Positions 2,465 to 37,218 of a DNA stretch of 64,000 bases are shown here, piece after piece; positions within the stretch are counted from its first letter, which is position 1; every line of letters starts with the position of its first letter. Source of the stretch: Geothrix sp. PMB-07 (GTDB taxonomy: Bacteria; Acidobacteriota; Holophagae; Holophagales; Holophagaceae); contig NZ_CP132333.1 of NCBI RefSeq assembly GCF_030758935.1, forward strand, positions 1,612,992-1,676,991. Reading direction: 5' to 3'. A program made the position numbers and the translations under genes. The notes below the pieces were generated by a model. It ran no database searches, had not been told where the DNA came from, and saw only the letters and a list, made by a program, of their open reading frames with translations.

Positions 2465-3699
2465 ATCCGTATTCGCCCTACTCCACGAAATCGAGATCCC
2501 GCCCCGTGGGTTTCCGGCAGGCCCCAAAGGGCTCCGAAGGCGAGGGCGAAGCAGAGGGCGCCCACCGCCCAGGCTGCGCCCACCATTCCCATCGAGCCCC
2601 GGAAGTACAGGAAGCTCCCGGTGATCAGGGGCACCGCGCCCCGCACGAAATTGGGCACCGTGGTGGCCACTGTGGCCCGCAAGTTGGTGCCGAACTGTTC
2701 GGCGGCGATGGTGACAAACACGGCCCAGTAGCCCGTGGCCAGGCCCAGGTAACCCGCCAGGATGTAGAAAAGTGTCGGGGTGAGGCCGCGCACGCTCAGG
2801 TAGATCACCACGCCTCCCAGTGCCGCGGCGATGGACCAGCCCACCACCTTCTTGCGCGTGTGGTAGGCCTGACTCAGGAAGCCGCTGAGCACGCTGCCGA
2901 GGGTGATGCCGGTGTAGCAGAAGGCCACGGCCGTGCCCGCGTTCACCTTGCCGCTGACCTTCAGCACCGGCGCGAATTCGGGTGAGAAGGTGATGAGGAT
3001 GCCCACCACGAACCAGGTGGGCAGCCCGATGAGAATGCAGCGGATGTAACGCCCAAGCCGGTTCCAGTTGGTGAAGAGGCTGAGGAAGTCGCCCCGTGCC
3101 ACCGTGGCTTCGTGCGTTTTGGCGAACATGAAACTCTCGCGGATGCCCACCCGCAGAAAGAGCAGGGCGATGCCCAAACCGCCGCCGATGGCGTAGGTGA
3201 CGCGCCAGGGAAAGAAATCGCCCACCAGCTTGGCGGTGACGGCTCCGAAGATGCCCACGGCCGCCACGATGGCCGTGCCGTAGCCGCGCAGATCCTTGGG
3301 CAGGATCTCCGACACCATGGTCACCGCCGCGCCCAGTTCGCCCGCCAGACCCAGGCCCGCGAGGAAACGCCATAGCGCGTACGCAGGTACCGAATGGACG
3401 AAGGCATTGGCGAGGTTGGCCATCGAGTAGAGGGCGATGCTGCCGAAGAGGGTGGAGAGGCGGCCCTTCTTGTCGCCCAGCACGCCCCAGAAAATGCCGC
3501 CCAGCAGCATGCCCACCATCTGCCAATTGAGCAGGCTGGCGCCCACTTCGATCTGGAGGGCGGGCGGCACGCCCAGGGCCGTGAGGCTGGGCTGGCGCAC
3601 GATGGGGAAGAGCAGCAGGTCGAACATGTCCACGAAGTAGCCGAGGGCGGCCACGAGGACGGTGAGGTTCAGGACGGTGCGGAGTCGGCTCTGGGTCAT
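2458..3699 (-). CDS. MFS transporter (sialic acid/aromatic acid-symporter-like), C-terminus frameshifted
   Basis: A 413-residue, 12-TM major facilitator. The inter-helix 2-3 loop reads GVLGDKKGRL, the canonical G-x-L-aD-r-x-GRr motif. ALWRFLAGLGLAGELG matches sugar-acid/organic-acid MFS carriers. Substrate unknown. The C-terminus is odd: after LPETHG the frame runs into a low-quality tail (AGSRFRGVGRIRIQ). Dropping one C from the C4 run at 2502-2505 (plus strand) gives GRDLDFVE and a stop at 2478-2480, a normal ending for such carriers. Either the sequence or the gene carries a +1 error there. It is divergent from the GlpD-like gene across 62 bp. Confidence 0.87.
   Translation of the reverse strand: MTQSRLRTVLNLTVLVAALGYFVDMFDLLLFPIVRQPSLTALGVPPALQIEVGASLLNWQMVGMLLGGIFWGVLGDKKGRLSTLFGSIALYSMANLANAFVHSVPAYALWRFLAGLGLAGELGAAVTMVSEILPKDLRGYGTAIVAAVGIFGAVTAKLVGDFFPWRVTYAIGGGLGIALLFLRVGIRESFMFAKTHEATVARGDFLSLFTNWNRLGRYIRCILIGLPTWFVVGILITFSPEFAPVLKVSGKVNAGTAVAFCYTGITLGSVLSGFLSQAYHTRKKVVGWSIAAALGGVVIYLSVRGLTPTLFYILAGYLGLATGYWAVFVTIAAEQFGTNLRATVATTVPNFVRGAVPLITGSFLYFRGSMGMVGAAWAVGALCFALAFGALWGLPETHGAGSRFRGVGRIRIQ
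2478..2508 (-). other. Probable +1 frameshift site at the 3' end of the MFS gene
   Basis: Read on the minus strand, GGGG (plus positions 2502-2505) follows the codons for PETH. With three Gs the frame continues as GRDLDFVE-stop, with the TAG at 2480-2478. With four Gs, as given, the frame reads through for about 20 more bases and overlaps the SDR gene. A homopolymer-length sequencing error and a real strain-specific extension are both possible. Confidence 0.6.
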
Positions 3700-33232: not shown

Positions 33233-34042
33233 TCACAGAAACCGCAGGGGTTTTTCTTCGGGGGCGAAACCGTGGCGCACGGCTTTCTCGAAGAACAGTG
33301 CCAGGCTTTCCCGCTCGGCCTCGCCGAGCGTGTAGCTGATGTTCTCCGTGAGGTATTCCTGCAGTTCGATCTTGGTCCAGCCGATGGTGCGCCGGGCCTC
33401 CTCCACGATGACGGGCAGCTGAGCCAAGCCAATCTCCAGGCTCTTGTGGAAGAAGGGGGCCACGCCGCCGGGAACGGGCAGCTCGGGGGCATCCTGGCGC
33501 ACGAGCCAAAGGGCGAAGACGAAGGGTAGCCCCGTCCAGGCATGCCACTCCTCAGCCAGGTCCAGCACGAACAGCCCCTGCCTGGGTGCGCGCATGGCTG
33601 CATCGCCGATCATCAGGGCTGCGTCGTTGGCTTCCAGCATGGCGGGCAGGTCCGGGCCCATGTCCACCACCGACGGCGTGACACCGTAGCGTTCCCGCAG
33701 CAGCAGCTGGGCCAGCACGACGCTGGTGCGGCTGGAGGTGTCCAGGGCCAGGCTGCGGATCTGCTCCGGGGGCACCTTGGAGAGGATGACCACGCTGCGC
33801 ACCCGCTTGGGCGAGGCAATGCAGAGCCCCGGCACGATCCGCAGGTTGGGAATGCGCAGATACTCGATGGAGCTCACGATGCCCGCATCCACCTCGCCGT
33901 CGCGCAGGCGGTCCGCGCAGGCGGACGGGTAATGGAATTTCAGGTGGAAATGCTCCCAGCCCAGCCCGTGCTTGAAACCATGGTTCAGGGGGGCGGCATT
34001 CAGGTAGTCGATGATGGACAGGCGGAAGGGTGAGGCGACCAT
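33233..34042 (-). CDS. mqnA: Chorismate dehydratase, futalosine pathway
   Basis: 269 residues of the MqnA/MqnD periplasmic-binding fold. RLSIIDYLNAAPLNHGF, FHYPSACADRLRDGEVDAGIVSSIEYLRIP and SVVILSKVPPEQIRSLALDTSSRTSVVLAQLLL are family hallmarks. It converts chorismate to 3-enolpyruvylbenzoate, the first step of the alternative menaquinone route, implying the organism makes menaquinone without the classical Men pathway. Its ATG overlaps the region immediately upstream of the divergent Ogt-like gene, leaving only 37 bp between the starts. Confidence 0.9.
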   Translation of the reverse strand: MVASPFRLSIIDYLNAAPLNHGFKHGLGWEHFHLKFHYPSACADRLRDGEVDAGIVSSIEYLRIPNLRIVPGLCIASPKRVRSVVILSKVPPEQIRSLALDTSSRTSVVLAQLLLRERYGVTPSVVDMGPDLPAMLEANDAALMIGDAAMRAPRQGLFVLDLAEEWHAWTGLPFVFALWLVRQDAPELPVPGGVAPFFHKSLEIGLAQLPVIVEEARRTIGWTKIELQEYLTENISYTLGEAERESLALFFEKAVRHGFAPEEKPLRFL

Positions 34043-34079
34043 GGCACCAGTCTATGCGAGTCCATGCGATGATTCCCTC

Positions 34080-34544
34080 ATGCTCCTCTGGCACTACGAG
34101 CTGAACACCCCCATGGGGCTCATGCGCGCCGCCTTCGACGGCCGGGGCAGGCTGTTGGAATTGGTGCTGGCCGCCTTCGATCCGCGCCAGACCAGCCCCC
34201 TGCCGCCGCGCGAGCAACGGGAGGCCAAACGGTTTTTGGACCGGCAGGTGGAGGCCTATCTCCGCGGCACCCTCCGCACCTTCACGGTGCCCCTGGATCC
34301 GCAGGGAAGGCCCAACGAGTTGCTGGTCTGGGACACGGTGCGCACCATTCCCTACGGCCAGACGCGCCAACCCGCGGACCTGGCGGCCTGGCTGGGCCTG
34401 GACGAAGATTTGATCGTCATGGCCTGCGTGGCCAACCCCATCACGCTGCTGATCCCCTCCCACCGCGTGATCCTGCCCGGGGACGGGCCCCTGCCCAGGG
34501 CCCTGCGGGATCTGGAATCAGGCCTGGGCTGGCGGAACCCGTGA
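34080..34544 (+). CDS. Ogt/ATL-like protein with active-site Cys replaced by Ser
   Basis: 154 residues from the ATG at 34080; upstream in-frame ATGs at 34041 and 34011 run into mqnA. The fold matches O6-alkylguanine-DNA alkyltransferases: FLDRQVEAYLRG, VPLDPQGRP, WDTVRTIPYGQTR. The catalytic PCHR is PSHR here (Ser127). The recognition-helix region before it (VMACVANPITLL) is also changed compared with the RANGANPISIL of its neighbours and lacks their Arg. It cannot accept an alkyl group through Cys, so it may act like alkyltransferase-like proteins that flag lesions for other repair, or it may be decaying. It is first in a run of alkylation-repair genes. Confidence 0.75.
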   Translation: MLLWHYELNTPMGLMRAAFDGRGRLLELVLAAFDPRQTSPLPPREQREAKRFLDRQVEAYLRGTLRTFTVPLDPQGRPNELLVWDTVRTIPYGQTRQPADLAAWLGLDEDLIVMACVANPITLLIPSHRVILPGDGPLPRALRDLESGLGWRNP

Positions 34545-34586: not shown

Positions 34587-35111
34587 ATGCTGATGGGCAT
34601 GCCAGGAGTCTTCCATCTGATCGAAACGCCCACGGGAGATCTGGGTGCGGAGTTCAATTCAGAGGGGAAACTGGTTCAGCTCATCCGCTTCCATGGGGCC
34701 AAGCCTCCGCTCGCGGCGGGCCCGGTGCCCAAGAGCCTGCCCTATCTGAAGCGGCAGTTGGAGGCTTATTTTTCGGGGAATTTGAGGAATTTCAACATCC
34801 CCTTCGAGGCCGAAGGCACGGAGTTCCAGCGCCGGGTCTGGAAGGAGCTCCAGAAGATCCCCTATGGCCAGGCCATCTCGTACCTGGAGCTGGCACGCCG
34901 TCTGGGCGACGAGCACTGCATCCGCGCCGCGGCCCGGGCCAATGGGGCCAACCCCATTTCCATCCTCATTCCCTGTCACCGCGTCATCGGCTCCGATGGT
35001 TCCCTCGTGGGCTACGGCGGGGGGCTGGACATGAAGGAATTCCTGCTCCGCCTGGAAGGCGTGCTGCCCAAAGCGCCGCCTCAGCCGCGGCTGCCGCTGG
35101 AGTGGGAGTAA
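34587..35111 (+). CDS. ogt: Methylated-DNA--[protein]-cysteine S-methyltransferase
   Basis: 174 residues. The catalytic motif ILIPCHRVIG has Cys130, preceded by RAAARANGANPIS, the recognition helix with its Arg, and by WKELQKIPYGQAISY. Directly removes O6-alkyl groups from guanine by suicidal transfer to the Cys. It lies 42 bp after the Ser-variant paralogue, which looks like tandem duplication followed by divergence. The C-terminal PKAPPQPRLPLEWE extends past the usual domain end. Confidence 0.92.
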   Translation: MLMGMPGVFHLIETPTGDLGAEFNSEGKLVQLIRFHGAKPPLAAGPVPKSLPYLKRQLEAYFSGNLRNFNIPFEAEGTEFQRRVWKELQKIPYGQAISYLELARRLGDEHCIRAAARANGANPISILIPCHRVIGSDGSLVGYGGGLDMKEFLLRLEGVLPKAPPQPRLPLEWE

Positions 35112-35302: not shown

Positions 35303-36718
35303 ATGCGCTGGTCGGATGAGCACCTCTACGAGCGGATCCTGGCGAAGGACGCGTCCTTCAACGGCCGGGTTCTGACGGGCGTTCTCACCACCGGGATCTA
35401 CTGCCTGCCTTCCTGCACCGCGCGCAAGCCCCTGGCCGTCAACGTCCGCTTCTTCGAGGACGAGGCGGCGGCCCAGGCAGCGGGGCTCAGGCCCTGCAAG
35501 CGGTGCAAGCCGGATGCCTTCTACCGGGGCGAGGATGCCGATCTGGCCCGCCTGGAAACCACGCTGGCGCAGGCAGCGGCCGATCCCGCCGCCTTTCCCG
35601 AGGTGGAGGCCCTGGCGGAGGGCGTGGGTGTGGGCGTCACGAAGCTGAAGGATCTGTTCCGCGACCACGTCCACTTCCAACCAGCGGCCTTTCTCCAGCG
35701 GGTGCGCATCCAGAGGGCCTGCGTCCTCCTGGCGGCAGGAGCGACAGGGCTGTCGGATCTGGCCTTTGCTTGTGGCTATGAAAGCGCCTCGGGGTTCCAC
35801 GAGGCCTTCCGCCGCCAGACGGGCCTGAGCCCCGGGGCCTATCGATCCATGCTTGGCGCGGATCGCTTCGTGCTGCCCAGGCCCGAAAGGCTGCGGGTGG
35901 AGGATGTGCTGGCCTTCCATGGACGCGATCCCCTGAGCGTTTCCGAGCGGGTGGAGGGTCGGGTGCTCCGCAAAGCCTTCCTGTTTGAAGGGCGGCCCGC
36001 CGTGCTCCGTCTCGCCTTTGGCGAGTCCGATATCGAGGTGACCTTGACCGGGGCCACCGGCGCCGCGGCCATGGCCAAGGCGCATGGGGCGACCCTGCGG
36101 TTGCTGGGCTGGACCGGCGATCCCGCCGCCTTCGAGGCAGCCCACCCCCAACTGGCGCACGGGCGCGAGGGGTTGCGGGTGCTGTTCACGCTGGATCCCT
36201 TCGAGGCCCTGGTGTGGGCCATTCTGGGCCAGCAGGTGAACCTGGCCTTCGCCTATGCCATGCGCCGCGACCTCATCCGTCTGGCTGGGATCCCAGCGGC
36301 GGAAGGCCTCATCGCCCATCCCGACGCCAACCACCTGGCGGCCCTGAAGGTGGAGGAACTCCAGGCCCTGCGCTTCTCCCGGCGCAAGGCCGAGTATCTG
36401 CTCCACGCGGCGGGAGAGGTGGCCAGTGGCCGGCTGCGGCTGGAGGACTTGGCCACGGCCACGGGCGCCGCCAAAGCCCTGGAATCCCTGCGGGGCTGCG
36501 GTCCCTGGACTGCCCAGTACGTGCTGATGCGGGGCCTGGGCTTTCGGGACTGCGTGCCCGTGGGCGACGCGGGCCTCACACTTGCACTGCAACGCTGGTT
36601 CCACCTCGAAACTCGCCCCGACGCTTTGGAAACCTTGCGCCTGATGACGCCTTTCGCGCCCCACCGCAGCCTGGCCACCTTCCACCTCTGGGCCAGCCTG
36701 AAAGGAACCCCCGCATGA
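35303..36718 (+). CDS. Ada N-domain/AraC/AlkA fusion: alkylation-response regulator and 3-methyladenine glycosylase
   Basis: 471 residues in three parts. Residues 1-75: Ada zinc domain with GIYCLPSC and CKRC (C34, C38, C65, C68); the first Cys takes methyl from DNA phosphotriesters in Ada. Residues 85-178: AraC-type helix-turn-helix (LSDLAFACGYESASGFHEAFRRQTGLSPGAYR). Residues 185-471: AlkA N-domain and HhH-GPD glycosylase with ILGQQVN, GCGPWTAQYVLMR and the catalytic Asp in PVGDAGL. It should sense methylation, activate genes and excise alkylated bases. The alkyltransferase domain of E. coli Ada is missing here but encoded by the next gene, joined by an ATGA overlap. Confidence 0.92.
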   Translation: MRWSDEHLYERILAKDASFNGRVLTGVLTTGIYCLPSCTARKPLAVNVRFFEDEAAAQAAGLRPCKRCKPDAFYRGEDADLARLETTLAQAAADPAAFPEVEALAEGVGVGVTKLKDLFRDHVHFQPAAFLQRVRIQRACVLLAAGATGLSDLAFACGYESASGFHEAFRRQTGLSPGAYRSMLGADRFVLPRPERLRVEDVLAFHGRDPLSVSERVEGRVLRKAFLFEGRPAVLRLAFGESDIEVTLTGATGAAAMAKAHGATLRLLGWTGDPAAFEAAHPQLAHGREGLRVLFTLDPFEALVWAILGQQVNLAFAYAMRRDLIRLAGIPAAEGLIAHPDANHLAALKVEELQALRFSRRKAEYLLHAAGEVASGRLRLEDLATATGAAKALESLRGCGPWTAQYVLMRGLGFRDCVPVGDAGLTLALQRWFHLETRPDALETLRLMTPFAPHRSLATFHLWASLKGTPA

Positions 36719-37218
36719 GCGGACTCCATACCCTCGATACGTCTCTCGGCCCCATCCAGGCGGCCTTTGATGCCGAAGGCGCGGTCATCTACCTGGGCTT
36801 CGCCGATCACGAATTCCGAGAGGCCCTGATGGCCAAGGTGGCTCGCCTGGGCCCGGTCTCGCGGCCTGATGCCGTGGCGTTGGAGCGACTGCGCGAGCAG
36901 CTGGAGGCCTATGGTGCCGGGCAGCGCAGGGTCTTCGAGGTGCCCTTCCGCCTCCATGGCAGCCCCTTCGAGCAGCGGGTCTGGGCGGCGCTGCAGCGCA
37001 TCCCCTTTGGTGAGATCCGCAGCTACGGGCAACTGGCCGCGGACCTGGGGGATCGCAACCTGAGCCGGGCCGTGGGTCGCGCCAATGGGGCCAATCCGGT
37101 CTCGATCCTGGTGCCCTGCCACCGCGTGATCGGCGCCAACGGCACGCTCACGGGCTATGCCGGCGGCTTGGCCCGCAAGGAGCACCTGTTGAGGCTGGAG
37201 GGTGCGCTCAAACAGTGA
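36715..37218 (+). CDS. Methylated-DNA--[protein]-cysteine S-methyltransferase (second active copy)
   Basis: 167 residues from the ATG at 36715, which overlaps the upstream stop (ATGA); the longer open frame to 36214 is a shadow within the AlkA domain. ILVPCHRVIG carries Cys135, preceded by RAVGRANGANPVS and WAALQRIPFGEIRSYGQLA. It corresponds to the C-terminal domain of E. coli Ada, here as a separate protein translated with the sensor-glycosylase. The last 11 bp overlap the convergent speD gene. Confidence 0.93.
   Translation: MSGLHTLDTSLGPIQAAFDAEGAVIYLGFADHEFREALMAKVARLGPVSRPDAVALERLREQLEAYGAGQRRVFEVPFRLHGSPFEQRVWAALQRIPFGEIRSYGQLAADLGDRNLSRAVGRANGANPVSILVPCHRVIGANGTLTGYAGGLARKEHLLRLEGALKQ

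Follow-up and report, generated by a model that had tools for sequence, protein, structure and literature searches.

The window analysed here, a stretch of 64,000 nucleotides of the Geothrix sp. PMB-07 genome, encodes a homologue of O6-alkylguanine-DNA alkyltransferase (AGT/Ogt), recognised by sequence comparison, that has lost its active site and nevertheless persists throughout the genus. We refer to this protein as S and to the two active Ogt-type enzymes encoded beside it as A2 and A3. S is a vertical orthologue of an active PCHR enzyme found beside mqnA in sister genera, and it was disabled in the Geothrix stem. Judged from its sequence, S is very probably non-catalytic and not an alkyltransferase-like (ATL) protein. 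Our best explanation, which we hold with about even confidence, is that S is a genus-wide pseudo-alkyltransferase retained for a role that is non-catalytic and probably involves protein binding.

AGTs are regarded as suicide enzymes made of a single polypeptide, and the Cys-less branch that has been described consists of the ATL sensors. A Cys-less clade that lacks lesion recognition, is strongly selected and has its constraint shifted to the N-terminal domain would represent a third branch. S would also provide a natural handle on the role of the poorly understood AGT N-terminal domain, since this domain is conserved in S while catalysis is not. In the literature searched, which lay mostly outside subscription titles, we found neither a Geothrix alkyltransferase nor an AGT pseudo-enzyme described.

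Loss of the active site across the genus

The initial annotation reported that the PCHR motif reads PSHR in S (residues 126-129), with Ser in place of the suicide Cys, while the two cluster paralogues A2 and A3 retain PCHR and RANGANP. Both observations hold, codon 127 being TCC (Table 1). The segment preceding PSHR, also described there as altered, turned out to be part of a wider change that includes the positions of the base-flipping Tyr and the Arg finger as well as the loop following PSHR. In a column alignment to the active paralogues, Tyr158 and Gly160 are deleted along with this active-site loop. S retains the hinge Asn137 (in all 41 full-length orthologues), His146 and Arg147. The match of S to Pfam PF01035 passes the cut-off of 27 bits and covers only positions 6-56 of the 81-position profile, because the active-site loop is absent. 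Against the NCBIfam model TIGR00589 'ogt', S scores 33.4 bits, under the cut-off of 46.4. An in-frame ATG is present upstream at 34011; in relatives, the conserved protein begins at 34080.

Table 1. Positions within the window of S, its landmarks and the neighbouring genes
Feature	Position	Strand	Remarks
S, pseudo-alkyltransferase ORF	34080..34544	+	154 aa; PF01035 36.3 bits
S N-terminal domain, residues 1-82	34080..34325	+	more constrained part
S C-terminal HTH / former active-site domain, residues 83-154	34326..34541	+	
S Pro98	34371..34373	+	register of base-flipping Tyr (hAGT Tyr114)
S Asp110	34407..34409	+	register of Arg finger (hAGT Arg128)
S Cys116	34425..34427	+	hAGT Met134 register; invariant in 41/41 orthologues
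S Ser127 (TCC)	34458..34460	+	suicide Cys position
S tail GxGPLPxALRxLExGxGW	34479..34532	+	clade-specific, conserved; in place of active-site loop
Long antisense ORF at S	33552-34463		
mqnA (menaquinone biosynthesis), divergent from S	33233..34042	-	PF02621; conserved neighbour, marks ancestral slot
A2, PCHR alkyltransferase (Ogt-type)	34587..35111	+	directly downstream of S in Geothrix loci read
Ada-type metal-binding/AraC-HTH/AlkA glycosylase fusion	35303..36718	+	
A3, second PCHR alkyltransferase (Ogt-type)	36715..37218	+	

The AlphaFold2 (AF2) model of S has the complete two-domain AGT fold (pLDDT 88, pTM 0.83). This model was built from an alignment of S with the cluster paralogues and Ogts from viral contigs and is biased toward the AGT fold because active paralogues were included; a 21-row alignment of S alone gave a pLDDT of 44. 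The best structural match is DNA-bound M. tuberculosis OGT (4wx9_A; VIA Z 19.7, rmsd 2.2 over 147 residues). Like M. tuberculosis OGT (PDB 4wx9, 4bhb) and bacterial Ogt/Ada-C proteins, S has the two-domain fold over its full length (29% identity), PxHR, the Asn hinge, and the His and Glu of the triad region. Unlike these active enzymes, S lacks the suicide Cys (in 38 of 41 orthologues) as well as the Tyr, the Arg finger and the loop of the active site, carries an acidic recognition helix, and is constrained mainly in its N-domain.

A search of 47 Geothrix genomes found full-length orthologues of S, with 60-92% identity, in the majority of them. When an S profile was run against 396 Acidobacteriota genomes, full-length Geothrix orthologues scored at least 235 bits and proteins of other genera at most 163 bits; no S orthologue was found outside Geothrix in this sample, and the matches outside the genus that were examined are ordinary PCHR enzymes. 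At the suicide Cys position, the 41 full-length orthologues carry Ala (24), Ser (8), Thr (5), Cys (3) or Val (1), and a partial copy at a contig edge, additional to the 41, carries Asp; position 127 has changed at least 12 times on the tree. In the Tyr114 register, 34 copies of S have Pro, three Ser, two Val, and one each Ile and Met, compared with Tyr in 41/41 copies of A2. Likewise, the Arg128 register is Asp (25), Glu (13), Gly (2) or Ala (1) in S and Arg in 41/41 copies of A2. On average, the HTH stretch carries a net charge of -2.4 in S, compared with -0.1 in its PCHR orthologues and +1.9 in A2. Ser itself is therefore not the defining trait of S; the constant trait is the wider loss of Tyr, Arg finger and loop.

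A Cys codon (TGC) is found at the active-site position of S in three loci (L024, L025 and L029, from genomes G013, G004 and G049). These copies form one nested group among Ser, Ala and Thr copies and still lack the Tyr, Arg finger and loop, and we therefore take the Cys as a chance return. In the well-assembled genome G040 (L079:2977-3093), an in-frame internal deletion has cut S to ~39 codons with A2 intact, so that S is dispensable in this genome. In G015, what looks like an internal deletion in S is a scaffold gap (Ns) and not real.

The ancestral slot beside mqnA

In the phylogeny, the S proteins form a single clade (100% support), and their sister group consists of the PCHR enzymes from genera g3, g4, g5, g7, g8 and g10, most of which adjoin mqnA and so occupy the same slot as S. 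It is this clade, together with the shared slot, that identifies S as the old enzyme of the slot. A tree from the N-domain alone again places S and the sister PCHR enzymes in one clade (98/95), and a tree from the C-domain alone does not decide for or against this grouping. The stem branch of S is long. The PCHR alkyltransferases at the mqnA slot of sister Holophagaceae (L069-L076) resemble S in slot (for most), clade and N-domain (60%), and differ in retaining the Cys, the active-site loop and Tyr158. In genus g6 and genome G054, A2-type enzymes stand alone at the mqnA slot, with neither S nor its PCHR orthologue present, and A2 is thus an older paralogue and no recent copy of S.

Some of the sister enzymes are themselves altered. 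In L069, L071, L075, L076 and L077, the Arg-finger position is His or Gln with the suicide Cys kept, and in some of these the Tyr is replaced by Cys or Phe, which suggests that erosion of the lesion-flipping residues may have started ahead of the loss of the Cys.

At all Geothrix loci read, A2 comes directly after S on the same strand, and this order persists in loci without the Ada-AlkA and A3 genes. In G. limicola (L037:4512-5544), the Ada-AlkA gene is absent with A2 and A3 back to back, and four further Geothrix loci (L041, L045, L047, L054) have neither Ada-AlkA nor A3 at the cluster site. Since the gene order on the mqnA side is ancestral, the adjacency of S and A2 says little on its own. 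A scan for promoters and terminators across the cluster gave nothing informative. Five PF01035 loci are present in the genome as a whole, namely S, A2, A3, another protein with PCHR and a PWHRV protein of 116 aa. The last of these keeps the ATL Tyr and Arg and is a canonical ATL, a protein that is present in 30/30 good-quality Geothrix genomes.

Purifying selection and domain constraint

Selection was estimated from 12 independent sister pairs as uncorrected Nei-Gojobori proportions, with bootstrapping over codons. Overall pN/pS is 0.144 for S (95% bootstrap 0.111-0.180) and 0.155 for A2 (0.117-0.200), and none of the 41 full-length copies of S contains a frameshift or stop. The two proteins differ in where the constraint lies. 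In S, pN/pS is 0.106 for the N-domain and 0.185 for the C-domain, whereas in A2 the values are 0.242 and 0.069, and the ratio of these N/C ratios, S versus A2, is 0.16 (0.07-0.34). Identity to the sister PCHR enzymes follows the same pattern, with 60% in the N-domain and 41% in the C-domain of S, as opposed to 41% and 63% in A2. Across the 41 copies of S, 58/154 positions are invariant (39/82 in the N-domain and 19/72 in the C-domain). The domain constraint is therefore inverted, with the N-domain conserved in S and the catalytic domain conserved in A2. The idea that A2 lost its N-domain constraint by handing this function over to S is unsupported, because in genus g6, which has no S, the N-domain of the A2-type enzymes is likewise the less constrained part, in a comparison with synonymous sites near saturation.

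The initial annotation had proposed searching for PSHR orthologues under purifying selection, and had named a strain-specific Ser under relaxed selection, or Cys in relatives, as counter-evidence. The orthologues are indeed under strong purifying selection and S is not specific to this strain, but Ser is not conserved (8 of 41 copies) and three relatives carry Cys. Its alternative suggestion of a pseudo-enzyme is supported, given that the Cys position varies among small residues, that Tyr, Arg finger and loop were lost together, and that purifying selection is strong.

Possible roles of S

In the scenario we favour, S lost its nucleophile, base-flipping Tyr, Arg finger and active-site loop in the Geothrix stem, with the active A2 directly behind it, and has been kept folded under strong purifying selection acting mostly on the N-domain. 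Such a protein would transfer no alkyl groups and flip no bases, and would instead act through protein contacts of its N-domain and rebuilt C-terminal tail. Its constant neighbour A2 suggests a candidate target, for which S may serve as a non-catalytic assembly or regulatory subunit. The N-terminal domains of AGTs contribute to cooperative assembly and stabilised DNA binding (PMC10779285, PMC5751216), and a partnership of this kind would be the simplest role that fits S. We nevertheless regard it as a tentative proposal that falls short of an even chance. A2-type enzymes occur without S in g6 and G054, which indicates that A2 has no general need of a partner, and G040 keeps A2 after losing most of S. 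The broader idea of a two-subunit O6-alkylguanine repair system, in which the dead ancestral orthologue would be a non-catalytic subunit dedicated to an active alkyltransferase encoded with it, is more doubtful still. We found no description of a pseudo-enzyme and enzyme pair of this type in the literature searched.

S could alternatively be a folded protein unrelated to alkylation repair, such as a small-molecule, RNA or protein binder, that sits beside A2 through the old slot. We consider this a sizeable minority possibility. The ancestral gene order next to mqnA, the persistence of S where the Ada-AlkA regulator is absent, and the new conserved tail and invariant Cys116 are all consistent with it, but at all the Geothrix loci read S lies directly upstream of A2 on the same strand, and S is also missing from the three genomes that have no clade A2 gene (G027, G030 and G043), which assembly gaps may explain. 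That S is instead a decaying, non-functional relic of the old alkyltransferase is barely credible: the lost active site, the in-frame deletion in one genome and the long stem branch would agree with decay, yet 41 full-length copies free of frameshifts and stops, the low pN/pS and the many invariant positions would not. Only marginally less improbable is a moved nucleophile, whereby Cys116, on the recognition helix and near the old pocket, would have taken over alkyl acceptance. This residue is invariant in 41/41 copies while position 127 drifts, and hAGT residue 134 is near the substrate cleft. However, E. coli Ada has a Cys in this register as well, in addition to its usual active Cys, and with Tyr, Arg finger and loop gone from S, lesion flipping for a Cys116-based reaction would need another way.

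The initial annotation had further raised the possibility of a new ATL type, meaning that S would bind DNA at O6-alkylguanine, leave the base unrepaired and pass the lesion to UvrABC. We judge this unlikely, although S has no conserved Cys, retains the AGT fold and the His and Arg of PxHR, and lies within an alkylation-repair cluster of a genome that encodes UvrA. The ATLs of E. coli, S. pombe (Atl1) and V. parahaemolyticus share with S the AGT C-domain fold (VIA Z about 8-9) and a replaced Cys, as S does in all but three orthologues. ATLs are defined by a retained Tyr and Arg finger, an absent N-terminal domain and a lost Asn hinge (PMC10779285), and they have a lesion-capping loop. S is the opposite in each respect: it lacks the Tyr, the Arg finger and the lesion-pocket loop, its N-domain is present and the most conserved part, and its Asn hinge is retained. 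The acidic recognition helix also argues against an ATL, and the genus already possesses a canonical ATL. On the three failed defining features (Tyr/Arg finger, N-domain and Asn hinge), S was rejected as an ATL.

Two other AGT-like proteins were encountered. The Geothrix genome G036 encodes a second ATL copy, 64% identical (contig C376:1723-2031). The Holophagaceae genus g9 has a separate degenerate AGT-like protein (L085, about 2986-3474; L087, about 2965-3459, minus strand; L115:7986-8483) with PSHR or PTHR. Like S, this protein has lost the Cys, Tyr and Arg finger and has a shortened loop. It differs from S in lying at another locus (downstream of an ABC-F gene in L115) and being distant on the tree, and its loss of AGT function appears independent of that in S.
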